43,849 nucleotides of DNA from Verrucomicrobiota bacterium. GTDB taxonomy: Bacteria > Verrucomicrobiota > Kiritimatiellia > SS1-B-03-39 > UBA6053. The translations under genes and the position numbers were made by a program. The stretch covers positions 1-43,849 of the forward strand of contig JAFIGD010000043.1 in assembly GCA_020831625.1 (NCBI GenBank). Reading direction: 5' to 3'. Each line of letters begins with the position of its first letter. The stretch's first letter is position 1. Under the pieces are notes generated by a model, which ran no database searches, was not told the DNA's origin, and worked only from the letters and a program-made list of their open reading frames with translations. Positions 470 to 43,849 of this stretch are shown here, piece by piece.

Positions 470-3400
470 TTAACTGTTTTCGCCATGCTCCCGGGCGAGG
501 TCTTTGAGGCCCTTGAGGTCAAGCTTGCCGGTGCCGAGGACGGGGAGGCTGTCCACGGGGAGCCAGGCGTTGTTGTCGGGTTTCCAGAGGTTGGGGATGT
601 TGGACTTGCGGACCGCTTCGCGGAAATCCTCCGGATTGCCGAGGTCGCGCTGGTACACGACGATGAGGCGCTCGCCTTTTTTCTCGTCGGAGACACCGGT
701 GACGGCGAGGTCGTCGGTCGCGCAGCCGAGGGCCTCCTGCAGGGCGGCCTCCACGGCGGAGTGGGAGACCATTTCGCCCGCGAGTTTGCTGAAGCGGGTG
801 AGGCGATCGGTGATGGTGATGAAGCCGTCGGTGTCCATTTTGACAATGTCGCCGGTATTGTACCAGCCGTCCTGAAGCACCTCGGCGGTTTTATCGGGGT
901 TGTTGAGATAGCCGTGCATGACACTGGGGCCTTTCACCCAGAGCAGGCCGGGGGTGTCGGGCGGGAGGATCTCTCCGGTATCGGGATCGGTGATACGGGT
1001 GAGCAGATTGGGCAGCACCCGGCCGACGCCGCCTTCTTTGCATCCGGTTTGGCGGAGGCCGTCGGCGTCCACGTCGGGTACGTTCACGGCGATCACGGGC
1101 GAGCATTCGGTGGCTCCGTAGCCTTCGAGGGGGCGGATGCCGTAACGCTTTTCGAACATGTCGCTGAGTTTGGGACGGAGTTTTTCGGCGCCCACGCAGA
1201 CCCAGCGGAGATGGGCGAAGCTTTTAGGGTCGATTTTCCGAACCCAGGCCATGAGGAAGGTGGGGGTGCCCACGAGGATGGTGGCCTTGTAGTCTCCGGC
1301 GATGCGGCTGATGGCGTCGGTTTCGAGGGGGTGATGATGATAGGCGACACCGATGCCGCGCAGGAGGGGGAACCAGAGGGTGGTGGTGTAGCCCATGGAA
1401 TGGAAGAAGGGCAGCACCGCGCAGATGCGGTCGTCAGTCTGGGGTCGGGCGACCACGCTGAAGCCGTCGATGTTGGAGAGGATATTGTGATGGCTGAGTT
1501 TGACGCCTTTGGGTTCGGCGGTGGAGCCGCTGCTGAAGAGGATGGTTAGCGGATCGGAGGGATCCCAGAAGCGGTCCCGGACCAGCAGATTGGTCGGGAT
1601 GAGTTTGGCTTGGAGCAGGGCGGTGATTTTTTCGGTTTTACCGATGGCGGCGCTGAGATCCTCGGCATAGATCACGTTTTCGGGCAGGGGGAAGTCGGGG
1701 AATTTCTCCATGACCTTGCGGGAGGTGATCAGGGTTTTCATTCCGGTTTGGCTGATGGCGGAGCGGATCGCGCTTTCGGAGGCGGTGTAGTTGAGGTTGA
1801 CCGCCACGCGGAAGTCCATGGCCAGGGCCAGATTCACCAGGGCACCGCCGGCGGAGGGCGGAATGAGAACCCCGACGGCCTCGGGGTCTCCGGCGAGGAG
1901 CGGGCGCAGTTTTTTCCGCAGCAGCAGGGAGGCGATGAGGGTGCGTCCATAGGTGAGTTCTTTTCCGGCGGAATCGGCGACCGCCAGGCGTTTCCAGTGT
2001 TTTTTGGCGCATCGGACAAAGCCTCTTCCGGCCGAGCCGCGGATGGGGGCGTAGGCGTCGGTTGCGGTGGCGGCCTGATGCATCACGGCGTTGCGCAGGT
2101 CCTCCACCGTGGAGGAGGACGGCAGCGCGTCGCCAATGGAGACGGTGATCTGGGTTTGGAAATCGCCGGGCTGCAGCAGCCGGGGTTCGCCGGCGGCGAA
2201 GCTGGCGCGGGTGCCGTAGCCGCCTTCGATGTACACGGGAATCACGGGGATATCACTGTTTTTGACGATGCGTTCGAATCCCGGTTTGAAGGGCAGCATG
2301 TGTCCGGTGCGGGAGAGGTGGCCTTCGGGGAAAATCGCGACAATGAACCCTTCGTCCAGGGCCTGGCGCGCGGCCAGGAGGGATTTCAGGATGGCTTTGG
2401 GGTTGTCCCCTTCCTGAATGGGAATCACGCCGTTGAGTTTCAGGAGTTTGCTCATCCAGGCGGGGCAGGATTCCAGATAGTCCCGGGACATGAGAAAGCG
2501 GATCCGCCGCTGCTGGATGGCGGTCACCCAGATGGCGTCCATGAGACTGACGTGGTTGCAGACGAGCAGGGCGGGACCCTGGGCGGGAATGTTTTCCGCG
2601 CCGTTGGTGCGCAGGCGGTAAAAGCAGCGGGTGAGGAAGATGACCACGAAGCGCACAAAGAAGTCGGGCAGGATGGCGAAAGAGCCCAGAGCGAGAAGGG
2701 CGACCAGACCTCCGATGAGGAGAAAGCTTTGTGCGCCGGTCAGTTGCAGGATGGCGGAGCAGAGATAGAGCAGGCCGGCGGCGAGGAGAACCCCGAGCCA
2801 GCTCAGCCAGCCGGAGGCGGCGATGACTTCGCCCATTTTCTCCGGAGGGGAGCGGAATTGAAGAAAGGACTGGAGCGGCACCACAAAGAGGCCGGCGCCG
2901 AGGCCCATGATGAAGCTGAAGCCGTAGGCGGAGAGGATTGCCCCCTGCGGAATGCCCCAGAGGCCGACGCAACTGACCGCCAGCAGGGTGGAGCCGATGG
3001 GGACAATGCCGAATTCGATGCCGCGGCGGCTGACCTTGCCCGCGAACAGCGAGCCGATGCCGATACCGAAGGCCACCACCAGGAAGAGGGATGTGGCCTG
3101 TTGCTGATTCTCCATGCCCAGATGTTCCATTCCGTAGGTGAGCATGTTGAGCTGCACAAAGGCTGCGATCATGAGGAAATAGGCGGAGGACCAGACCGCG
3201 AGGGCCAGAAATCCGTCTTTATGCACCCACTTCATGGTCCGGTACACATCGCGGATGAAAAAGACGCTGGCCTTGGAGGATCCGCCGGCAACCGGGGTGG
3301 CGGGAATGCGGGTGGCGGCGTACAGGCCGAGGGCGGCGACGGCGATACTGGAGAGGCCGACCCCGCGTCCGAGCAGAATGTAAAAGAGCGGGGCCGCCGC

Positions 3401-3868
3401 CGTGCCGATAATCATGGCCAGATAACTCGCGGCCGACATGAAACTGTTGGCCCGGGAGATGTTTTCGCGGCCGACGAGTTCGGGAACAATGCTGAATTTG
3501 GTCGGCGAGAACAGCGCGCTCTGCACCGACATGGCGAACATGGCGAGCAGCATGATTTCCCGGCTGTGAAAATACACCCCGACCGCGCCCAGGGTCATGA
3601 CGCCAACCTCCATGATTTTGACACTCAGAACGATTTTATGTTTGGCCACCCGGTCGGCCAGCACGCCCGCCGCGCCGATGAAGATGAGAAAAGGGATGGC
3701 GAAAATCGCGCCGACAACGGCGTTGACCTCATTGGTGTTTTTTTCGGGCCAGGCGTAGACCATGGCGTAGATGACCGCGAGTTTGAACAGGTTGTCGTTC
3801 AGCGCGCCGCCGAACTGGGCGGCGTTGTGCCAATGAAAGGGTCCGAGGGAGGGGGCCTTGTTTTTCAT
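470..3868 (-). CDS. aas: MFS lysophospholipid transporter / PlsC acyltransferase / acyl-ACP synthetase fusion (LplT-Aas type)
   Basis: A 1,132-residue three-part protein. Residues 1 to about 410 form an MFS-like bundle of hydrophobic helices, like LplT, which flips lysophospholipids inward. Residues of about 430-610 form a PlsC acyltransferase with the HX4D box NHVSLMD and the IFPEGHLSRTG motif. The rest is an AMP-forming acyl-ACP/acyl-CoA synthetase with the phosphate loop FSSGSTAEPKGVKLSHHN, GYGATECSP and the TGD motif in GWYNTGDI. In E. coli the transporter (LplT) and Aas are separate proteins that together re-acylate lysophosphatidylethanolamine at the inner membrane; here they are one polypeptide, an architecture known from other bacteria. 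The start MKNKAPSLGPFHW fits an MFS N-terminus. The long plus-strand frame opposite is a shadow. Confidence 0.93.
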   Translation of the reverse strand: MKNKAPSLGPFHWHNAAQFGGALNDNLFKLAVIYAMVYAWPEKNTNEVNAVVGAIFAIPFLIFIGAAGVLADRVAKHKIVLSVKIMEVGVMTLGAVGVYFHSREIMLLAMFAMSVQSALFSPTKFSIVPELVGRENISRANSFMSAASYLAMIIGTAAAPLFYILLGRGVGLSSIAVAALGLYAATRIPATPVAGGSSKASVFFIRDVYRTMKWVHKDGFLALAVWSSAYFLMIAAFVQLNMLTYGMEHLGMENQQQATSLFLVVAFGIGIGSLFAGKVSRRGIEFGIVPIGSTLLAVSCVGLWGIPQGAILSAYGFSFIMGLGAGLFVVPLQSFLQFRSPPEKMGEVIAASGWLSWLGVLLAAGLLYLCSAILQLTGAQSFLLIGGLVALLALGSFAILPDFFVRFVVIFLTRCFYRLRTNGAENIPAQGPALLVCNHVSLMDAIWVTAIQQRRIRFLMSRDYLESCPAWMSKLLKLNGVIPIQEGDNPKAILKSLLAARQALDEGFIVAIFPEGHLSRTGHMLPFKPGFERIVKNSDIPVIPVYIEGGYGTRASFAAGEPRLLQPGDFQTQITVSIGDALPSSSTVEDLRNAVMHQAATATDAYAPIRGSAGRGFVRCAKKHWKRLAVADSAGKELTYGRTLIASLLLRKKLRPLLAGDPEAVGVLIPPSAGGALVNLALAMDFRVAVNLNYTASESAIRSAISQTGMKTLITSRKVMEKFPDFPLPENVIYAEDLSAAIGKTEKITALLQAKLIPTNLLVRDRFWDPSDPLTILFSSGSTAEPKGVKLSHHNILSNIDGFSVVARPQTDDRICAVLPFFHSMGYTTTLWFPLLRGIGVAYHHHPLETDAISRIAGDYKATILVGTPTFLMAWVRKIDPKSFAHLRWVCVGAEKLRPKLSDMFEKRYGIRPLEGYGATECSPVIAVNVPDVDADGLRQTGCKEGGVGRVLPNLLTRITDPDTGEILPPDTPGLLWVKGPSVMHGYLNNPDKTAEVLQDGWYNTGDIVKMDTDGFITITDRLTRFSKLAGEMVSHSAVEAALQEALGCATDDLAVTGVSDEKKGERLIVVYQRDLGNPEDFREAVRKSNIPNLWKPDNNAWLPVDSLPVLGTGKLDLKGLKDLAREHGENS

Positions 3869-27480: not shown

Positions 27481-27720
27481 AAGACCACGGATGCAGGGAA
27501 TGACGAGTGACGAGTGACGAATGACGAGTGTTTCGAGTGCGGAATGCGGAGTGCTTTGGGGCAACGGAAGAAAAGACCACGGATCGAAGACCACGGATGC
27601 TGTGGTGTTTTGAATAGAAGGAAGACCACGGATGTTTACCCGCCGCAGGCGGGCTGTGGGGCAAGGGTGTTTTGAACAGAAGGACGCAAAGAAAACAAAG
27701 CATCTCCTCCGCATTTTCCC
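27481..27720. repeat. Cluster of dispersed intergenic repeats upstream of mfd
   Basis: The 503-bp gap between mfd and the next gene contains: four copies of AAGACCACGGAT or close variants (near 27481, 27574, 27587 and 27622); the tandem GAGTGAC block 27500-27535 with the 18-mer AGTGACGAGTGACGAATG; a perfect hairpin CCCGCC-GCA-GGCGGG near 27639-27653; and TTTTGAACAGAAGGACGCAAAG (variant of a 20-nt motif in the 413-bp repeat), which links this cluster to the duplicated block at 18.2/19.8 kb. No gene is evident. Confidence 0.85.
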
Positions 27721-28569: not shown

Positions 28570-29823
28570 ATGAAATTGTTTGACTCACAGAACAAAGAAG
28601 TTGAATACAAGGCACTGAATGATTTTGTAGTGAACAGCACAGAACTGGATGCATTGGAGGCCAAACTTGGTGATTTTAATCTGTTTGATGTTCTCGGTGT
28701 AGCATATGCGGAGTTAAAGCACTCCAATACGTTGGCATGGCTTTTTAACCCAGAGGAATCGCATGGCCTTGGTTCAATTTTTTTGCAGCGGTGGCTAATG
28801 AGGGTTTTACATGCTTCTGAAAAAAGTCCACCTGCGGTGACACCAGTTGAAATTGACGCTTGGAACTTGATCCGGGTCGAAGTGAGGCGGGAGTGGCAGC
28901 ACATTGATTTGCTCCTTATTTTAACTTTGGAAGGAGGTGCGCAGTGGATTGTTAGCATTGAGAACAAGGTTCAGGCATTACAGTCTAAAGGTCAGCTCCA
29001 AAAATACCGTGAAGCGGTACAGAGTGAGTTCGCATTTGCTGAACGAAAAATTTATATTTTTCTAACGAAAAATGGTGAAATTCCAGAGGACGATACCTAT
29101 TTAACAGCTTCATATGAGGATATATATTATACCCTCAGTGAGACCAGACATATGCGACGTCATTCCATTGGACATGAGCCCAGTGTTCTAATTGAAAATT
29201 ACTTACGACTTTTGGAGGAAAGATTTATGAATGATTCAGACATTGCTAAGTTAGCTGTCACTATCTACAGAAAACATCAGCGAGCCATAGACTTAATTTT
29301 TGAATATATACCGAATAATGCAAAACAAATCCACCTGACGGAGCTTGCATGTCAACTGGAAGCGAAAAAAGGCTCTTTAGATATCAGTATGGGGCCAATC
29401 AACAAGGCCTATGTTAGATTTATACCCAAGAAATGGGATATCCCTGAAAACCGAATGGGGGTAGCATGGGGTGATTCAAATATTGGTGTGCTGTTTGAAG
29501 TTGAATGCACCCCACGTGGGGTTGCATTCATGATTGTGGCTGGAAAACCTCCTCAAAGTTGGATGGATTCTCTGCCGTCTGATTTTTCAAAGCCTCCTTT
29601 TAAATTAGATACAAAGTATCGAACTAAATCTTATCCCAGGCTTTATGGGGAATATATTAACAACTATGACCCCTCGAAAATTTATGATCCCGATGAAGCT
29701 GGCGTAATCCTTTATAACTGGATTAAAAAACGACTCAATGAAGACGATATGAAGGAAGTTATTCGATTAGTGCAACAACAGATTAAGCGGATTCCAGAAT
29801 ACATTGATGAGCTGATTCCTTGA
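28570..29823 (+). CDS. PD-(D/E)XK nuclease-superfamily protein
   Basis: 417 residues with a strong AAAGGAG upstream of ATG 28570. The N-terminal third matches the PDDEXK_4 type (Pfam PF14281): an early acidic residue in YAELKHSNTLAWLFNP (Glu48), SHGLGSIFLQRWL, then the core Asp113 in HIDLLLIL and Glu131-x-Lys133 in WIVSIENKV, followed by a QLQKYREAV helix. These residues form the metal site of restriction-type nucleases. The C-terminal ~230 residues (KLAVTIYRKHQRAIDLIFEY and beyond) are helical then beta-rich and not recognised. Such proteins are common orphans in defence islands. The 3' end overlaps the convergent WYL gene by 41 bp. AT-rich compared with the chromosome backbone. Confidence 0.82.
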   Translation: MKLFDSQNKEVEYKALNDFVVNSTELDALEAKLGDFNLFDVLGVAYAELKHSNTLAWLFNPEESHGLGSIFLQRWLMRVLHASEKSPPAVTPVEIDAWNLIRVEVRREWQHIDLLLILTLEGGAQWIVSIENKVQALQSKGQLQKYREAVQSEFAFAERKIYIFLTKNGEIPEDDTYLTASYEDIYYTLSETRHMRRHSIGHEPSVLIENYLRLLEERFMNDSDIAKLAVTIYRKHQRAIDLIFEYIPNNAKQIHLTELACQLEAKKGSLDISMGPINKAYVRFIPKKWDIPENRMGVAWGDSNIGVLFEVECTPRGVAFMIVAGKPPQSWMDSLPSDFSKPPFKLDTKYRTKSYPRLYGEYINNYDPSKIYDPDEAGVILYNWIKKRLNEDDMKEVIRLVQQQIKRIPEYIDELIP

Positions 29824-30801: not shown

Positions 30802-30830
30802 AAGTCTAAGACACTGTATGTCTTATGCTT
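30802..30830. promoter_or_regulatory. 29-bp palindrome, probable operator of the WYL regulator
   Basis: TAAGACA-CTGTA-TGTCTTA has perfect 7-bp arms (30807-30813 and 30819-30825). Beyond two unpaired positions the symmetry continues with AAG (30802-30804) and CTT (30828-30830). The centre is 30816. It lies between the divergent starts at 30751 and 30869. On the minus strand a TTGACT -35-like hexamer overlaps its edge, so binding there should block the regulator's own promoter too. Confidence 0.65.
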
Positions 30831-30868
30831 CATGCTATTCTGTCTCCATTCAACCTATGGAGAACTTC

Positions 30869-33043
30869 ATGCCGAAAAATATCAGACGTCAAAGCCGTTT
30901 CCTGAACGAGGGGCGCCAAAGTTTCCCCGTTCCGGGCCATGCGGGATTTCCTTTGGATCTCCTGCTGATCCGGTACACCTCCCGACTTGTCAAAATCTCC
31001 CCGCTTCATGCCGATTTTTTTGATGTGATCATTCTTTGCCTCGGATTCGCGTCCTTCTCCGATACGGTTGAGGAACTCTTCGGGGATGACTGTCAGGACG
31101 ATGAACGAACGGAATTAATCCATGCCAGAAACACGACGGATCTGGCCTACCAAGTCATGTCGCTCCTGGTCAAATACGGGACCCGCACCAAAGAACGCCG
31201 TTTTCGAAACCTGTTGTCGGATAAACTGGTTCAAAAATGCCGCGCCTCTGAATTCCCCCCCGCCTACTCGGAACGCCGTCAACAGATCAGCGGGGTGCTC
31301 GCTCTGTCAGAAGTTGATGTGGCAATTCTCGAATTCTGTGTGTGCTACAAATTGGATCGAAGCTTTGAAAGCTATTGTGATTCATACCCGATTTCAGACT
31401 GGCCCGCAATGATGGCGTCGGCGTTGCAGGTGTCTTGCAAAGACGTCACCAATACCCTGCGGCCCGCGGGCGCGCTGAAAAGTAAAGGGTTGCTGGAAAT
31501 CGAAAGTCGCTTGATGACGCTGTCGAAGGAGGTGTTCGAGTACACGGCGGGAATTTCGGATCGATTTTTCGCTGATGAACTGGCCCGTGTGGACACGGGG
31601 GATCCCTATGAAGTGGACAGTTTTCCGATTCCGCCTGAATCGATCCGCGTTTTGCGTTGTTTGATCCGGAGCCCGCAGCCCTGTCATCTGTTTTTTCATG
31701 GGAAACCCGGCACCGGGAAAACTGAATTCGCTAAAGCACTTGCGGCGGAGGCCGGGATTCCGGTGTTTTGGGTGAACGACGGCGGTGAGGCCAATGAACG
31801 TTCGCGCAAAACCGCTCTGTGCGCCGCCGCCGGGCTGGCTCCGGCTCATGCGGTTCTGATTGTGGATGAAGCGGACAGTTTGTTGAACACCCGGGTGTTG
31901 TTCCGTGCCGGCAAGGTTGATAAAGGATGGATTAATCAATTCATGGACCAGAGTAAACACAAGGTCATTTGGATTGCCAATGAATCGGATGAGATCGAGA
32001 GGTCGGTGCTGCGCCGTTTCGCTTTCAGCCATGCGTTCCATTCCTTTTCACGGGAGCAGCGGATCCGGTTCTGGAAACGGCACGTGAAGGGCAGTTCACT
32101 TGAACGGCACGTAAGCCCCGCCATGATAGAGGGGTTCGCGGACCGGTATGAGCTGGACGCGGGCGGGATCAGCGCGGCATTGCACGCCGCTGGGAAAGTT
32201 TTTCGGCGCAAAAAGATGAAAAGCGGAGACCTTGAAAAAATTCTCAGTGCTTTTCTGGATCATCATGCGGAACTTTCCGGGATTTCCGTCAAGCGGGCGA
32301 AACTGAACCCGGTTAATGAGGCCTATGATATAAATGCGGTAAACTCGGATGTGCAACTGGGCGGTATTCTGAAGGCGTTGAAGACCCGTGAAAAGCGGAA
32401 CGCGACCTCCCGCGATCTCTATGCGGCCAATCTGCTGCTCTGGGGCGCACCGGGAACCGGAAAGACGGAATTTGCAAAATATCTCGCGAAGGTTCTGGGG
32501 AAAGAGTTGCTTGTAAAACGCATGTCAGACTTGCAAAGCATGTATGTCGGCCAGACGGAAAAACGGATTGCGGAGGCCTTTCGGCAAGCGTCCCAGGGGG
32601 ATGTGGTCCTGTTTCTGGATGAGGCGGATTCCCTTTTGATTGACCGCCGACACGCGACCCGGTCCTGGGAGACCAGTCAGACGAATGAAGTGCTCACGCA
32701 GATGGAAAACTTTTCCGGTATTTGCATTTGCTGCACAAATCTTGTGGAGGGTCTGGACGAGGCCGCGATGAGGCGGTTCACTTGGAAAATCAAGTTTCTG
32801 CCACTGTCCAAAGAGGGACGGATTCGGATGTACCGGCGGTATTTTCAGCCAACGGGCCGATTGTCCGCTTTTGTTGAGGAGGCTCTGGCCGGGTTGGATC
32901 CGTTGACACCGGGCGATTTTAAAACGGTTTGGCTGCGGCGGGAGCTTCAATCCGGTCCAATGTCTGACGCGCTTTTGCTTGATGAGCTTCGTTTGGAAAT
33001 GAGTTATAAGAACCGTTCAGGATCCGGGCAAATCGGATTTTGA
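30869..33043 (+). CDS. Tandem AAA+ ATPase of a WYL-regulated operon
   Basis: 724 residues from ATG 30869, chosen because GGAG lies 6 nt upstream; the frame is open to 30818. Residues 1 to about 250 hold no named domain but look helical (LALSEVDVAILEFCVCYKLD, a winged-helix-like segment). AAA module 1 has Walker A GKPGTGKTE (near 279), Walker B LIVDEADSLLN and an Arg pair in SVLRRFAFSHAF. AAA module 2 has Walker A GAPGTGKTEFAKYLA (near 526), VLFLDEADSLLIDR, a sensor-1 region ICICCTNLV and AAMRRFTWKIKF. Module 1 lacks the usual polar sensor and ring-pore motifs that I could recognise; module 2 looks catalytically complete (SMYVGQTEKRI). The role is unknown; remodelling of a protein or nucleic-acid target is inference. 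It is 30 bp upstream of the ADP-ribosylglycohydrolase gene. Confidence 0.9.
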   Translation: MPKNIRRQSRFLNEGRQSFPVPGHAGFPLDLLLIRYTSRLVKISPLHADFFDVIILCLGFASFSDTVEELFGDDCQDDERTELIHARNTTDLAYQVMSLLVKYGTRTKERRFRNLLSDKLVQKCRASEFPPAYSERRQQISGVLALSEVDVAILEFCVCYKLDRSFESYCDSYPISDWPAMMASALQVSCKDVTNTLRPAGALKSKGLLEIESRLMTLSKEVFEYTAGISDRFFADELARVDTGDPYEVDSFPIPPESIRVLRCLIRSPQPCHLFFHGKPGTGKTEFAKALAAEAGIPVFWVNDGGEANERSRKTALCAAAGLAPAHAVLIVDEADSLLNTRVLFRAGKVDKGWINQFMDQSKHKVIWIANESDEIERSVLRRFAFSHAFHSFSREQRIRFWKRHVKGSSLERHVSPAMIEGFADRYELDAGGISAALHAAGKVFRRKKMKSGDLEKILSAFLDHHAELSGISVKRAKLNPVNEAYDINAVNSDVQLGGILKALKTREKRNATSRDLYAANLLLWGAPGTGKTEFAKYLAKVLGKELLVKRMSDLQSMYVGQTEKRIAEAFRQASQGDVVLFLDEADSLLIDRRHATRSWETSQTNEVLTQMENFSGICICCTNLVEGLDEAAMRRFTWKIKFLPLSKEGRIRMYRRYFQPTGRLSAFVEEALAGLDPLTPGDFKTVWLRRELQSGPMSDALLLDELRLEMSYKNRSGSGQIGF

Positions 33044-37534: not shown

Positions 37535-38797
37535 ATGTCGAATTTCAATTTTGTGTATATCGTTTGTCATGATCTCGGGCGGGCCATGGGGTGCTACGGC
37601 GCGTCGGTGCCCACGCCGAATCTGGACCGTTTTGCAGCGGAGTCGGTCCGCTTCACGCGTGCGCACTGCGCCTCGCCGGCCTGCTCGCCGTCACGGGCCT
37701 GCGCGATGAGCGGACTGCATGCGCACCGCAGCGGTGCGGTCGGCCTCTCCCACATGGGCTGGCCGCTGGATTTGAAATGGACCACCACGGTGGATGATTT
37801 CAATGCGGCGGGCTATCAGACGATTCTCTCCGGGATCAATCACGAGCGCCACCCGCGCACGGACCGTTATGAGACCGATCTGACAAAAGACTGGGCGGAC
37901 TGGAACAGCGACCGCGCCGTGGACAACGCGCTGCGCGCGCTGGCGGAGCGGGGCAGGTCGAGACCTTTCTATTTGAACATCGCCACCCAGGAGCCGCACG
38001 CCTGCACCTGGCCCGCCGTGGGCGGACGTATTCCGGCTTTGCCGGAGGATACGCCGGTCTGGGATCCGCCGGGGATGCCGGATTATCCGGGAAAGGAGGA
38101 TGATTTCAGACGGTTCGCCGCCTCCATTGCGTTTATGGATCATCATATCGGCCGTTTTTTGAGGGGACTGGACGAACTCGGACTGCGCGACAGCACGGTG
38201 GTGGTGTTCACGACCGATCACGGAATCTCCGGTCCGCGCGCCAAAGGCACACTCTACGGACTCGGCACCGAGATCGCCCTGCTGCTGCGGCTGCCCGACG
38301 GACGGCATGCGGGCGAAACCCGGAACACCCTCCTCAGCAACCTGGATTTTCGACCCGCCTGGTGCGAGGCGTGCGGGCTTCCGCAGCCGGAGGGGATCGA
38401 CGGCAAATCGTTCTGGCCCGCAATTGATGCTCCGGATGCGCCTCACCGCGACCACCTCTATTTGGAGCGGAATTATCACGGGGAAAAACTGCGTCCGGAG
38501 GATGAGGGCTGGGTGGACCTTTACGACCCGATTCGCGCCATCCGCACGCCGGAACACCTGTACCTCCGGTTCTACCGTCCCGATGCCTGGCCGGAGGTGA
38601 CGCGTCCGGAGGAAGAACTATACGATGTGGCCGCGGACCCCGCGGAAACCCTGCCGCTGCGGGATGAAGCCCTTGCAAAAGGATTCCGCAGACGGTTGGA
38701 GGCGGAGGCTGAACTTCTCGGGGACTTTGTGCCCGGTCCGCCGCCGGAACGCCCGGAAGAACCCGGATGGGGGCCGAACTGGCACAGGGTTTCCTAA
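37535..38797 (+). CDS. Formylglycine-dependent sulfatase
   Basis: 420 residues. Type-I sulfatase fold: metal-binding region FVYIVCHDLG near the start, PTPNLDRFAAESVRFTRAHC, and the maturation motif Cys50-Ser-Pro-Ser-Arg54, where Cys50 is oxidised to formylglycine; FTTDHGISG holds the second metal-ligand pair. The C-terminal part carries the usual EELYDVAADPAET. There is no signal peptide, so it is probably cytoplasmic and acts on imported oligosaccharide or small sulfated substrates. It is shorter than most secreted sulfatases. The anaerobic maturase that converts Cys is not in the window. First gene of the plus-strand cluster, 85 bp before the next. Confidence 0.93.
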   Translation: MSNFNFVYIVCHDLGRAMGCYGASVPTPNLDRFAAESVRFTRAHCASPACSPSRACAMSGLHAHRSGAVGLSHMGWPLDLKWTTTVDDFNAAGYQTILSGINHERHPRTDRYETDLTKDWADWNSDRAVDNALRALAERGRSRPFYLNIATQEPHACTWPAVGGRIPALPEDTPVWDPPGMPDYPGKEDDFRRFAASIAFMDHHIGRFLRGLDELGLRDSTVVVFTTDHGISGPRAKGTLYGLGTEIALLLRLPDGRHAGETRNTLLSNLDFRPAWCEACGLPQPEGIDGKSFWPAIDAPDAPHRDHLYLERNYHGEKLRPEDEGWVDLYDPIRAIRTPEHLYLRFYRPDAWPEVTRPEEELYDVAADPAETLPLRDEALAKGFRRRLEAEAELLGDFVPGPPPERPEEPGWGPNWHRVS

Positions 38798-38834: not shown

Positions 38835-38864
38835 CGATTACGATTACGATCACGATTACGATTA
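38835..38864 (+). repeat. CGATTA hexamer array
   Basis: Five tandem CGATTA hexamers, the third being CGATCA, directly upstream of the AMP-ligase gene. The AGGAAAAGAAAGA that follows may act as its Shine-Dalgarno region. Hexamer count could vary between strains by slippage. Confidence 0.9.
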
Positions 38865-38882: not shown

Positions 38883-40922
38883 ATGACCCTGTCATTTCCA
38901 AAACGATTGACTCAACTCGACCCCGCCCGCACCGCTCTGCGCGACGCCACCGGGTCCCATACTTACGGCGAACTGCTGGAGGCCTCCGCACGTTTCGCGG
39001 GGATTCTTCATTCGTCACTCGTCACTCAACACTCGAACTTCCCTGCGCCACGCATAGCCTTCCTGGTGACGCCGGGTTTCGAATATGTGCTGGTGCAGTG
39101 GGCGGTCTGGCGGGCGGGCGGCATCGCGGTGCCGCTTTGCATTCAGCATCCGGAGCCGGAACTGCGGCATGTCGTCGAGGATTCGGGGGCGGAGATTCTG
39201 GTGGCCTCAAGGGAATACGCTGACCGATTAACCCCTTTGCTGAAGCACGGACAGAAGCTGATTCTCTCATCGGAGTGGCGGAACGGAGCGTTGGTGGAGG
39301 TTTCGCCGCCGAGTCCCGGGGACGGCGCGATGATGATCTACACCAGCGGCACCACCGGGAAGCCCAAGGGGGCGCTGACCACGCACGCGGGCCTCGCGGC
39401 GCAGATTCGCAGTCTGTCGGAGGCCTGGGAATGGACACCGGAGGACCGCATCCTGCTCTTTTTGCCCCTGCACCATGTGCACGGGGTGGTGAACGTGCTG
39501 GGATGCGCCCTGTGGAACGGCGCGTTTTGCGATATTCTGTCCGCGTTCGACGCGGAAACGGTCTGGCGGAGGGTTTGCGACGGCGATTTGACGGTGTTTA
39601 TGGCGGTGCCGACGATCTATGCTCGGTTGCTGGCAGCGTGGGATGCGTCCGACGAGGCGGAGCGCAAGGCTTTCCGGGCGGGGTGCGGAAACATGCGGCT
39701 GATGGTCAGCGGTTCGGCCGCCCTTCCGGCGCCGATGTTTCACCGCTGGCGGGAGATCAGCGGGCATACGCTGCTGGAGCGTTACGGGATGACCGAGATC
39801 GGCATGGCGCTTTCCAATCCCCTGCATGGGGAGCGTCTGCCCGGCACGGTGGGAACGCCGCTGCCCGGTGTGGAGGCGCGGCTGGACCGCCGGGAGGGGG
39901 AAGAAGCCGGCGAGATTCAGGTGCGCGGTCCCGCCGTCTTTGCGGGGTATTGGAACCGTCCGGAGGCGACGGCGGAAAGTTTCACGGCGGACGGCTGGTT
40001 CAAAACCGGAGACATCGCGGTTTGTGAAAACGGCGTGTACCGTATCCTCGGCCGAAACTCCGTGGACATCATTAAAAGCGGCGGGTTTAAAATTTCGGCG
40101 CTGGAGATTGAGACGGAGCTGCTGGGGTATCCGGAAATTGAGCAGGCCGCGGTGGTGGGGGTGCCCGACCCGGAATGGGGCGAACGGGTGGCCGCCGCCG
40201 TGGTGCTGAAAGCCGGGTGCGCACTCACGCTGTCCGAGCTCCGTGCAAGAGGAAAATCCCGCTTGGCCGTTTACAAACTGCCTTCCCGTTTAAAGGTGGT
40301 GGAGGGGCTGCCCCGCAACGCCATGGGAAAGGTGGTCAAGCCGGAGGTGAAAAAACTCTTCCGCAAAACGTTGCTGCTGATTGGAAGCTCCATCATGGAG
40401 CAGTGGGGGCAGCCGGATGAGCTGGCTCCGGATCTGCGGGTGCTGAACCGGGCCGTCGGGGGGAGCATCACCACCGACTGGATTGACCGCATCGCTCCGC
40501 TGCTTCGTGAGGTGACCCCGGATTTTCTTCTGTGTTACGTCGGCAGCAACGATGTCGGGCGCGGACGGAAACGGGAGGAAATTGTCAGGGATCTGTTGCG
40601 GGTGCGGGAACAAATCACCTGCCCGTTCGGGTATCTCTCGATCATCAAATGTCCGCAGCGAGACGGAAGGCATGACGAAATCGCGGAGGTCTGCGCCGCC
40701 ATTCGCGGTGCCCTGCCGCCGGAGGATCTCTGGATCGACACCGACCCGGTGTTCCTTCCCGGCGGCCAGCCGGTGCCCGAATACTACGTTGAGGACCAAC
40801 TCCACCTGACCTCCGGGGCGTATACGGCTCTCCTGGCATACGCAAAGCCCCGGGTGGCGGTCTGGGTGCAAAGCGGCTGCGCATCGGAAAAACGCCTCCC
40901 CGGCGGAACCGCAACCGGATGA
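38883..40922 (+). CDS. Acyl-CoA synthetase (AMP-forming) fused to a C-terminal SGNH/GDSL hydrolase
   Basis: 679 residues from ATG 38883; the open frame reaches 38625, but that part overlaps the sulfatase in another frame. Residues 1 to about 490 are an ANL-family ligase: phosphate loop IYTSGTTGKPKGAL (near 151-164), LERYGMTEIGMAL, GWFKTGD, the hinge ILGRNSVDIIKSGGFKIS and the catalytic Lys in PRNAMGKVVK. It most resembles malonyl-CoA or short-chain acyl-CoA synthetases. From about residue 497 follows a complete SGNH esterase: block I LLIGSSIMEQW (Ser503 nucleophile), block II NRAVGGSITTDW (Gly), block III YVGSNDVG (Asn), block V EDQLHLT with Asp638 and His641. No signal peptide. The fusion suggests that the esterase frees an acid which the ligase activates, an inference. 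An 11-residue in-frame insertion from a repeat lies at residues 43-53. Confidence 0.9.
   Translation: MTLSFPKRLTQLDPARTALRDATGSHTYGELLEASARFAGILHSSLVTQHSNFPAPRIAFLVTPGFEYVLVQWAVWRAGGIAVPLCIQHPEPELRHVVEDSGAEILVASREYADRLTPLLKHGQKLILSSEWRNGALVEVSPPSPGDGAMMIYTSGTTGKPKGALTTHAGLAAQIRSLSEAWEWTPEDRILLFLPLHHVHGVVNVLGCALWNGAFCDILSAFDAETVWRRVCDGDLTVFMAVPTIYARLLAAWDASDEAERKAFRAGCGNMRLMVSGSAALPAPMFHRWREISGHTLLERYGMTEIGMALSNPLHGERLPGTVGTPLPGVEARLDRREGEEAGEIQVRGPAVFAGYWNRPEATAESFTADGWFKTGDIAVCENGVYRILGRNSVDIIKSGGFKISALEIETELLGYPEIEQAAVVGVPDPEWGERVAAAVVLKAGCALTLSELRARGKSRLAVYKLPSRLKVVEGLPRNAMGKVVKPEVKKLFRKTLLLIGSSIMEQWGQPDELAPDLRVLNRAVGGSITTDWIDRIAPLLREVTPDFLLCYVGSNDVGRGRKREEIVRDLLRVREQITCPFGYLSIIKCPQRDGRHDEIAEVCAAIRGALPPEDLWIDTDPVFLPGGQPVPEYYVEDQLHLTSGAYTALLAYAKPRVAVWVQSGCASEKRLPGGTATG
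39009..39037 (-). repeat. Dispersed GAGTGAC-type repeat embedded in frame in the AMP-ligase gene
   Basis: On the minus strand, 18 nt (AGTGACGAGTGACGAATG, 39009-39026) are identical to 218-235 and 27506-27523, followed by TTCGAGTGTTG-like sequence as in the 27.5-kb copy. It encodes His-Ser-Ser-Leu-Val-Thr-Gln-His-Ser-Asn-Phe on the plus strand, in a surface loop between the first helix and the RIAFLV strand of the ligase, without disturbing the frame. Confidence 0.8.
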
Positions 40923-40929
40923 CATCATC

Positions 40930-42597
40930 ATGCGCCCTAATGTTCTCCTGATTCAATGTGACGACCTGGGACCCGACGATCTCGGACTGGACGGCCCGCA
41001 CACGCCCAACCTGCTCACGCTTGAGGAGGAAGCCTTCTCCGCAAAAGATTTCAGCGTGCAGCCGGTCTGTTCTCCCTCGCGCGCGGCGCTGATGACCGGC
41101 CGGCATCCGCTGCGCGCGGGCGTGAGTCATGTTCACGGAGGCAAAGATTTTCTTCATCCCGGAGAGCGCACGCTCGCCGGGCGGTTTCAGGCCGCGGGCT
41201 ATGCGACCGGCATGTGGGGAAAGTGGCATTTGGGCCATACCGAAGGGTATTTTCCCTGGCAGCGCGGGTTCGATGAGGCTTACATGGCGGATCTGTACAA
41301 ACACCGTCAAACGAAAGGGAGCTTGAACGGCGCGCCCAGGGCCTCTGAAAAGTGGGCGGACGAGGAAATCGTCGGTTTGGCACTGGATTTTATCCATCGA
41401 CACCGGGATCAGCGCTGGTTCGCCTATTTGCCCACCCTGACACCGCACACGCCCCACGACGCACCGGAACACTGGGTGCGGTTTCATGTGGAGCGCGGCT
41501 GTCCCCCCGGACTGGCGGTGAACCGGGCCATGATTTCGTTTCTGGACGAGCAGATTGGGCGTCTTCTGGAGGGACTGCGCGCGGAGGGGCTTGCCGACGA
41601 CACCCTGGTGGTGTTTATGAGCGATCACGGCCCCGCGATCGCGGCCAATGAACTTGATGACACCGACCGCCGCCTGCGGAACCGTTCCGGCCGCCGGGGA
41701 TGGAAAGGGGATTTGTATGAGAACGGGGTGCAGTCTCCGCTGATGATCCGGCTGCCCGGCCGCATTGCGCCGCGTGTTTGTCGGGAACCGCTGCAACTGC
41801 TGGATGTCCCCCCCACACTCCTGGCACTGTGCGGTCTTCCCGCAGAGGATCTGGAGGAGGGACGTTCGTTTGCAGACAGTTTGCTGGAGGGAATTCCGCA
41901 TGAGACTGGGGACATCTTCACCTACGCCCACCGCGGCTGGCTCACCACGGGGCCGCCGTATTCCCTTTCCGGCATTCCCGGCGAGTACGATCCCGGCCCG
42001 CCCGGATCCTTTGAAGAGCAGTCCCTGTCGCTTCGCAGGGGCCGCATGAAGCTCATTTTCAATCCGGAGTTCACTTCAAACGGAAAAAGCGTCCTGTATA
42101 ATTTGTCCGCGGATCCCTGCGAACGTGACGATCTTTCAGATGCCCTGCCGGAACTTTGTGAGCAAATGACGGAGGATCTGCGCCGCTGGTGGGCGTCGGT
42201 TCTCCGCGAACCGCACGCGTTCCAACCGCCGGTGCTGCGGATGCGTTCCGGAGAGAACCGTTTTCCCGCCAATCTGCCGTCCGCCGTGTGCGGAGGCACG
42301 GTGAATTGTGTGAACGGGGTGCAGGGCTGGGACAAGGAAGGCAGCTGCATCACGTATCAGATACACGCCAGCGTCACCGGAACCGCCACGCTCAGCCTTC
42401 TGGATCCGAAAGGCCGTGCCGTGGAGGGTGCCTGGGAATGTAGACTCCCCGATACGGAAATCCAAGGGCAAAGCGTCAACGGCACTCTCGCGGATATTCC
42501 TCTGCACGCGGGCCTGCAGCGGCTGGAATTCCGCGCGGTGCGTGTGCCCGCCCATACACGCCTGGCCAGCTTGAGGTCCTATATTTCAAGAGTTTGA
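40930..42597 (+). CDS. Formylglycine-dependent sulfatase with C-terminal extension
   Basis: 555 residues. Metal site and maturation motifs: NVLLIQCDDLGPDDLG, Cys47-Ser-Pro-Ser-Arg51 in VCSPSRAALMTGRHP (formylglycine signature), GMWGKWHLGH with the catalytic Lys/His, and VFMSDHGPAIAA with Asp-His. From about residue 430 a beta-rich C-terminal part (SAVCGGTVNCVNGVQGWDKE, ATLSLLDPKGRAVEG) looks like a carbohydrate-binding or accessory sandwich. No signal peptide is seen, as in the sulfatase upstream, so cytoplasmic action is inferred. It begins 7 bp after the AMP-ligase stop, so it is in the same operon. Substrate unknown. Confidence 0.93.
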   Translation: MRPNVLLIQCDDLGPDDLGLDGPHTPNLLTLEEEAFSAKDFSVQPVCSPSRAALMTGRHPLRAGVSHVHGGKDFLHPGERTLAGRFQAAGYATGMWGKWHLGHTEGYFPWQRGFDEAYMADLYKHRQTKGSLNGAPRASEKWADEEIVGLALDFIHRHRDQRWFAYLPTLTPHTPHDAPEHWVRFHVERGCPPGLAVNRAMISFLDEQIGRLLEGLRAEGLADDTLVVFMSDHGPAIAANELDDTDRRLRNRSGRRGWKGDLYENGVQSPLMIRLPGRIAPRVCREPLQLLDVPPTLLALCGLPAEDLEEGRSFADSLLEGIPHETGDIFTYAHRGWLTTGPPYSLSGIPGEYDPGPPGSFEEQSLSLRRGRMKLIFNPEFTSNGKSVLYNLSADPCERDDLSDALPELCEQMTEDLRRWWASVLREPHAFQPPVLRMRSGENRFPANLPSAVCGGTVNCVNGVQGWDKEGSCITYQIHASVTGTATLSLLDPKGRAVEGAWECRLPDTEIQGQSVNGTLADIPLHAGLQRLEFRAVRVPAHTRLASLRSYISRV

Positions 42598-42644: not shown

Positions 42645-43849
42645 ATGCTTGATTCCTCCACCTCCCGCCTTCGCGAATATGCCCTTGCCCACGCCCCCCG
42701 CATGTACAGGGAGCCGGCGGGTCGGCTGCGGTACCCCTACCTGGTGCCGGGCAGTGCCCAGTACAACGAACATTTGTGGGACTGGGACTCCTGGCTCACG
42801 AATGTGGCCCTGCGGGAGCTGTACGCCGGCGATGAGGACGCGCTGGAGACGCTGCGTCCGCACGAGCGCGGCTGCATCCTGAACTGGCTGGACATCGCCA
42901 AAGCCAACGGCTGCACCGGATGGATTCCCTATGTGGTCGGTCCGGGCGGCGCCGACCTTCCCGCCGATCCCTGGGCCCGCAACATGCACAAGCCCTGCCT
43001 CGCCCAGCACGCCGCGTTTCTGGTGCGGGAGGACAATGACATCGCCTGGCTGCGCGAAGACCTCATGTATATCGGTTATTTTCTCAACAACTATCTCGAC
43101 CATCACCGTCATCCCTGCGGGCTGCTTTTCTGGCAGAGCGATGACGGCATCGGGGTGGACAACGACCCCTGCACCTTCGACCGTCCGCCCCGTTCCAGCG
43201 GGTCGGTGTATCTGAACTGCATGATGGTGATGGAACTGAAGGCGCAGGTGGAGCTGCTGGAGCGGGCAGGACTGGACGCCACCGAATTCCGCCGGGAGGC
43301 GGAGAAACTGACCACCGCCATTCAGACCCACTGCTGGGACGAGCGCGACGGCTTTTTCTACAATGCCGATTTTTGTTTTAACGAACGGCAGCCGCGCCGG
43401 ACCGGACTGCACGCGGGCCGCCTGCGCGCGTGGGAGAGTCTGCCCATGCGCATCGGGATCTGGTCCGGGTTTCTGGCGATGTGGAGCGGGGTGGCCACCG
43501 GGGCGCAGGCGGAGCGAATGGTGCGGGAGCACCTCCGCAATCCCGACAGCTTTTGCGCCGCGTTCGGGGTGCGCACCCTCGACAAGCGCGAGCGCATGTA
43601 CAGCCTGCGGGCCTCCGGAAATCCCTCTCCCTGGACCGGGCCGGTCTGGGGCGTGTCCAATTATTTGGTCTGGGAGGGCCTGCGCCGCTGCGGATACGAA
43701 GATGACGCCCGCGAACTCGCGGAAAAAACGCTCGCTCTCTTTGGACGCGATCTTGAACGGCACGGCGAACTGCACGAATGCTACGAACCCGACAGCGGCG
43801 AGCCCATCACCTGTCCCGGATTTCAGAACTGGAATCTGCTGGCCTTGAG
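42645..43849 (+). CDS. GH63/GH37-like (alpha/alpha)6 glycosidase, 3' end outside window
   Basis: 401 codons visible, continuing past the window edge. The open frame begins with ATG 42645 (MLDSSTSRLREYALAHAP). Family-like blocks: YNEHLWDWDSWLTNVAL (as in the trehalase WDSYW motif), NGCTGWIPYVV, WQSDDGIGVDNDPC, which aligns with the SGMDNSPR box of GH63 and mannosylglycerate hydrolases (Asp is the acid), and GNPSPWTGPVWGVSNYLVWE. A late acidic patch HECYEPDSGEP corresponds to the base Glu region. This indicates an inverting alpha-glucosidase, mannosylglycerate hydrolase or trehalase-like enzyme. No signal peptide. It lies 47 bp after the second sulfatase and probably belongs to the same operon. 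Confidence 0.85.
   Translation, partial: MLDSSTSRLREYALAHAPRMYREPAGRLRYPYLVPGSAQYNEHLWDWDSWLTNVALRELYAGDEDALETLRPHERGCILNWLDIAKANGCTGWIPYVVGPGGADLPADPWARNMHKPCLAQHAAFLVREDNDIAWLREDLMYIGYFLNNYLDHHRHPCGLLFWQSDDGIGVDNDPCTFDRPPRSSGSVYLNCMMVMELKAQVELLERAGLDATEFRREAEKLTTAIQTHCWDERDGFFYNADFCFNERQPRRTGLHAGRLRAWESLPMRIGIWSGFLAMWSGVATGAQAERMVREHLRNPDSFCAAFGVRTLDKRERMYSLRASGNPSPWTGPVWGVSNYLVWEGLRRCGYEDDARELAEKTLALFGRDLERHGELHECYEPDSGEPITCPGFQNWNLLAL

Follow-up and report, generated by a model that had tools for sequence, protein, structure and literature searches.

Fusions that bring ANL activation and ester chemistry together in one chain are known in kind. The Aas-like acyltransferase-ANL fusions, for example, act in the repair of membrane phospholipids. 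OleB, another partner of an ANL enzyme, has an alpha/beta-hydrolase fold, unlike an SGNH hydrolase. In OleBC this hydrolase is placed N-terminal to the ANL enzyme OleC and the polypeptide serves the beta-lactone/olefin pathway (PMC7064751). The protein analysed here resembles OleBC in having a hydrolase and an ANL enzyme in one polypeptide, but the ligase comes first and the SGNH hydrolase second, and the predicted chemistry is CoA-ester formation; from the Aas-like fusions it differs in carrying an SGNH hydrolase instead of an acyltransferase. A literature search for SGNH and AMP-binding fusions gave nothing relevant, and nothing in the literature searched contradicts the statement in the preliminary description that no enzyme with this pairing is known to be characterised. 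The window, that is, the whole stretch of 43,849 nucleotides that was analysed, also encodes an LplT-Aas-like triple fusion of 1132 aa with MFS, PlsC acyltransferase and AMP-binding domains (470-3868, reverse strand).

The fusion gene (38883..40922, forward strand) is an uninterrupted frame from ATG to TGA that encodes 679 aa; an alternative earlier opening of the frame exists at ATG 38625, and 38883 is the sensible start. Residues 1-493 (38883..40361) form a malonyl-CoA-synthetase-like ANL ligase and residues 495-663 (40365..40871) an SGNH/GDSL hydrolase. Three Pfam domains were found in the protein, all above their curated cut-offs: AMP-binding (8e-68, residues 13-357), AMP-binding_C (3e-16, residues 408-483) and Lipase_GDSL_2 (1.6e-9, residues 500-647, with 39.0 bits where 32.9 is the cut-off). 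The ligase ends with KPEVKKLF, which is the end point of its stand-alone relatives, and KTLLLIG, the first strand of the esterase, comes immediately after it, so that there is no linker between the halves. The same fusion is present in a second species, Verrucomicrobia bacterium BM_Day0_Bin.15 (contig JAFIGC010000110.1, our locus L007, with the same length and match as G001:C215), where a single frame matches residues 6-663 at 79% identity. The fusion is therefore neither a chance event nor a local sequencing error, which the preliminary description had named as a way in which two separate genes could appear joined, and a frameshift artefact was ruled out. Comparison of the two fusions gave dN/dS values of 0.14 (ligase half) and 0.11 (SGNH half), indicating that both are kept by purifying selection. 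This ruled out a pseudogene or one degenerate half, and a catalytic set degenerate in all homologues, the other refuter named beforehand, was not the case. When the esterase was compared with the copy in a third genome of the genus (G002), dN/dS was 0.07-0.08, with a high dS. The gene thus joins members of two known enzyme families in a true fusion that is both rare and conserved.

The ligase half has the features of an ANL acyl-CoA synthetase, namely the P-loop YTSGTTGKPKG (residues 153-163, 39339..39371), the hinge GRNSVD (390-395, 40050..40067) and the motif PRNAMGK with the catalytic Lys483 (477-483, 40311..40331), in addition to Pfam matches above the cut-offs. Its nearest solved protein by sequence is MatB 3nyq (E 5e-86), and the predicted fold superimposes on the same structure with a TM score of 0.90 by target and an rmsd of 3.0; MatB 4fuq is close in both respects. 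Identity to these MatB/ACSF3-type enzymes is 33-39% in structural alignments. Eleven residues distinguish the (methyl)malonyl-CoA synthetases within the superfamily (PMC6122825, Table 9; R. palustris numbering). Six of them, MatB H209, M247, R255, S277, R299 and M486, are present as H200, M240, R248, S278, R300 and M481, and these six comprise every one of the eleven that touches substrate or CoA or lines the pocket. His200 (39480..39482) is the pocket residue His209 of R. palustris MatB, Arg248 (39624..39626) is Arg236 of S. coelicolor MatB, a CoA phosphate contact (PMC6122825), and Arg300, within ERYGMTE (299-305, 39777..39797), corresponds to S. coelicolor Arg283, a residue in salt bridges with the methylmalonyl-CoA bound in the crystal (PMC6122825). 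In ordinary FadD-like paralogues of the same bacterial family none of the six is present, the positions being occupied by F, P, V/A, G, G and N/A. The other five group residues (MatB M240, F273, H285, E351 and M364) are V, M, F, Q and R in the fusion, and the widespread stand-alone relatives are mostly non-MatB there too. Against NCBIfam PRK07514, malonyl-CoA synthase, the ligase scores 380.9 bits where the cut-off is 558, and we predict that it works like this curated family although it is not filed in it.

The MatB-type pocket, the closeness to MatB in sequence and fold, and the setting of a stand-alone relative together lead us to predict malonate or methylmalonate as the substrate, with oxalate and simple fatty acids less likely; that the acid is malonate or a close relative is held with fair confidence. 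The relative in question, the 60% identical ligase of G021, lies near methylmalonyl-CoA mutase and MeaB. At the same locus (L119, G021:C99) there are also AllG, a subunit of oxamate carbamoyltransferase, a cyclase-family protein and a permease-like protein, which makes a malonate-yielding catabolic cluster possible there. A search of the window genome for malonyl-CoA decarboxylase found no match, and its control search likewise found no match anywhere.

The SGNH half resembles the small hydrolases of PF13472 in its size of about 170 aa, in its score above the Pfam cut-off and in its GxS, Gly, Asn and DxxH blocks: Ser503 as the block I nucleophile in GSSIME (40389..40391), Gly527, Asn556 in the block III motif GSND (40548..40550), and Asp638 and His641 in the block V motif DQLH (40794..40805). 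All five are invariant among seven homologues. The ligase motifs and esterase blocks named in the preliminary description were found where it had placed them. It is unlike those hydrolases in lying directly behind an ANL ligase, in having GSS for GDS, and in having no close characterised relative; its matches to the PDB are weak, and the best solved proteins include the sialate O-acetylesterase 6njc (E 1e-4). Its sole NCBIfam match is to TesA-type thioesterase I/lysophospholipase (E 3e-6), which scores 27 bits where the cut-off is 270; the SGNH fold family includes acetylesterases, thioesterases and lysophospholipases as well. The predicted model of this half is poor, with pLDDT mostly 50-75 and below 50 from residue 618.

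Our main reading, to which we give a probability of roughly 55%, is that the protein works in the cytoplasm as a bifunctional salvage enzyme, releasing a malonyl-type group from an ester and activating it anew to malonyl-CoA. A malonylated sugar compound would be imported into the cell, and the SGNH half would cleave its ester of malonate, methylmalonate or another small malonate-like acid by means of Ser503-His641-Asp638, with Gly527 and Asn556 in the oxyanion hole. The ligase half would then convert the freed acid with ATP to the adenylate and pass it to CoA, and the resulting malonyl-CoA may enter fatty-acid synthesis or degradation, while the rest of the glycoside would be processed by the glycosidase and, in some species, by the sulfatases. 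A cytoplasmic location is indicated by the dependence on ATP and CoA and by the missing signal peptides; the coupling of the two halves and the sulfation of the compound are presumed. The strongest alternative is the same salvage with another acid, the ligase having shifted to a different short acid (acetate, propionate or succinate) that the SGNH half would release from an acylated sugar. The appearance of a sialate O-acetylesterase among the best solved matches of the SGNH half and the ligase score below the curated malonyl-CoA synthase cut-off agree with it, but all six MatB-type pocket residues are kept, including Arg300, and we consider it unlikely.

As had been described, the fusion lies between two sulfatases without signal peptides and is followed by a glycosidase. 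Sulfatase 1 (37535..38797) and sulfatase 2 (40930..42597), the latter only 7 bp after the fusion gene, are both on the forward strand, both carry CSPSR, which fits the formylglycine motif C/S-x-P-S-R, and both exceed the Pfam cut-off, with 121 and 156 bits. There is no room for a signal peptide in either, since each begins at the first strand of the fold and has no upstream in-frame start; both look active and cytoplasmic. The MGH1-like/GH63-clan glycosidase (42645..43847, forward strand) is incomplete since the window is the whole of its contig (C70) and the gene is cut by the contig end. The window genome has 46 sulfatase matches, so a sulfatase is cheaply come by as a neighbour. The gene content also varies within the genus. 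In the window genome (G000) the order is sulfatase 1, fusion, sulfatase 2 and glycosidase. In G001 the fusion directly adjoins the glycosidase, which is 86% identical to that of the window and is followed by a short remnant of sulfatase 1; the other side of the fusion is the contig end, and sulfatase 2 is absent. In G002, sulfatase 2 and a truncated, 86% identical sulfatase 1 are followed by about 200 bp of unrelated sequence and a lone esterase with its own ATG, and the ligase was not found anywhere in this 90%-complete genome; there may be a MAG assembly error at this junction. G003 has neither half. The case for a sulfatase operon is thereby weaker than had been proposed. Within the genus, the esterase, glycosidase and sulfatases recur together in shuffled order, and the ligase is the part that is gained or lost; as the esterase survives without it in G002, the coupling is not essential there. 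At a further locus of G002 (L149, G002:C127, 5853-9870) a sulfatase and an MGH1-like glycosidase again lie close together, the glycosidase being 28% identical to that of the window, which suggests a recurrent sulfatase-MGH1 pairing.

The same gene setting bears on a biosynthetic alternative, in which the ligase would make malonyl-CoA and the SGNH half would transfer the malonyl group to a sugar or other acceptor. SGNH domains do share in acyl transfer in some systems, such as the OafB-type acetyltransferases, and a fusion would put donor synthesis beside the transferase. The neighbours, however, are breakdown enzymes, and in G002 and G182 the SGNH half stands alone without the ligase; we regard this alternative as improbable. 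As for the cytoplasmic breakdown of an acylated, sulfated sugar proposed in the preliminary description, its esterase-then-ligase logic and the cytoplasmic neighbours stand, the acid can now be named with fair confidence as malonate-type, and the sulfatase link is weaker than was thought: sulfation is the weakest part of that model.

The fusion is very rare. When 84,980 species genomes (GTDB) were scanned for close relatives, L007 was the only one of the best 80 loci with both halves; the remaining loci were stand-alone ligases, 52-60% identical, from cyanobacteria, acidobacteria, planctomycetes, myxococci and others. Longer open reading frames at five of these 80 loci (L008, L021, L049, L053 and L067) contained no SGNH half. 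Of the 288 genomes searched from the same class, 6 contained a ligase of this type and 14 a recognisable esterase relative, and no fusion was found there beyond G000 and G001. When 388 genomes of the phylum were searched with a profile, 131 proved to have an SGNH protein of this type; inspection of 14 matches with long open frames revealed no further fusion and brought to light the separate ligase and secreted-looking SGNH protein of G408 described below. No relative was found in the viral contigs searched, and the plasmids gave one weak match. The fused ligases of G000 and G001 pair in the ligase tree with full support, which fits a single fusion event.

Ligase and esterase are also associated in other genomes. 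In G075 a BD-FAE-type alpha/beta-hydrolase follows the stand-alone ligase by about 65 bp, and in G010 one lies downstream with one gene between; these two are 54% identical and come from two different families of the class. G010 has GH31 and GH39 glycosidases adjoining its ligase. In G021 a BD-FAE-type esterase is present elsewhere from the ligase. Overall, such an esterase occurs in 3 of 4 stand-alone-ligase genomes compared with 11 of 288 (hypergeometric P 1.6e-4, a post hoc value that ignores relatedness). G408 belongs to another class; here two secreted-looking proteins come after the malonyl-CoA-synthetase-like ligase, the second of them (1042 aa) with an SGNH domain, and an FCD/GntR-type regulator is divergent upstream (L186, 7148-12683). 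The common theme is a ligase with an esterase, often with sugar breakdown, from unrelated esterase families and in one case fused. The tree places the fused ligases apart from those of G010 and G075, which makes the esterase link one of analogy and not of direct descent.

This recurrence weighs against a loose fusion of operon neighbours, in which the two active sites would share co-expression and no common intermediate. A linkerless junction is what simple stop-codon loss would give, the esterase is alone in G002, and SGNH and ligase genes do not generally co-occur; yet the ligase is repeatedly associated with other esterases, and we judge a loose fusion to have little chance of being correct. 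Still less probable is an editing role in which the SGNH half is a thioesterase clearing wrong acyl-CoA products of the ligase half, since the TesA-type match that suggests it is far below its cut-off, the esterase is kept in G002 without the ligase, and the genes around it serve glycan breakdown.

Plant glycosides commonly carry malonyl groups, and microbial recovery of the group is little described in the literature we searched. If the salvage reading is true, a fused esterase-malonyl-CoA synthetase is direct genetic evidence of a malonyl salvage step, and ligase and esterase gene pairs become a testable marker of it. Seagrasses are reported to contain flavone glucosides with malonyl groups and also flavone glycosides with sulfate (PMC11478234), so that, as a suggestion only, one substrate class with malonyl and sulfate decorations is conceivable. 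Between the half-reactions of ANL enzymes the C-terminal lobe turns through about 140 degrees, according to a reference given in PMC6122825, and the directly attached esterase should move with it. Only tentatively, as a version with the odds against it, do we suggest an undescribed bifunctional de-malonylase/malonyl-CoA synthetase whose SGNH domain is carried on the mobile lobe and whose swing helps to pass malonate to the adenylation site, giving a dedicated route for malonylated, possibly sulfated glycosides whose steps are encoded by separate genes in relatives. A fused esterase-malonyl-CoA synthetase would, in any case, be an attractive example of how an additional catalytic domain can be attached to the moving lobe of an ANL enzyme.

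Some other features of the window were observed. A 7-bp repeat, ATTCGTC/ACTCGTC, occurs genome-wide (96 exact 16-mers, compared with 0 for the reversed control), with arrays at 180-274 and 27498-27530 and an in-frame stretch in the N-terminal region of the ligase at 39002..39034 (forward strand); the last falls in a loop predicted with low confidence, and the insert of the homologue at this place is longer and different but likewise repeat-like. Five copies of the 6-bp unit CGATTA lie a short way upstream of the fusion gene, at 38835-38864, and similar short repeats are present in the G001 contig. Further upstream, a PDDEXK_4 nuclease-superfamily protein (28570-29823, forward strand) is encoded 1 kb before an AAA ATPase-domain protein (30818-33043, forward strand) that has a sub-cut-off match to the anti-phage ATPase IteA (7e-29).
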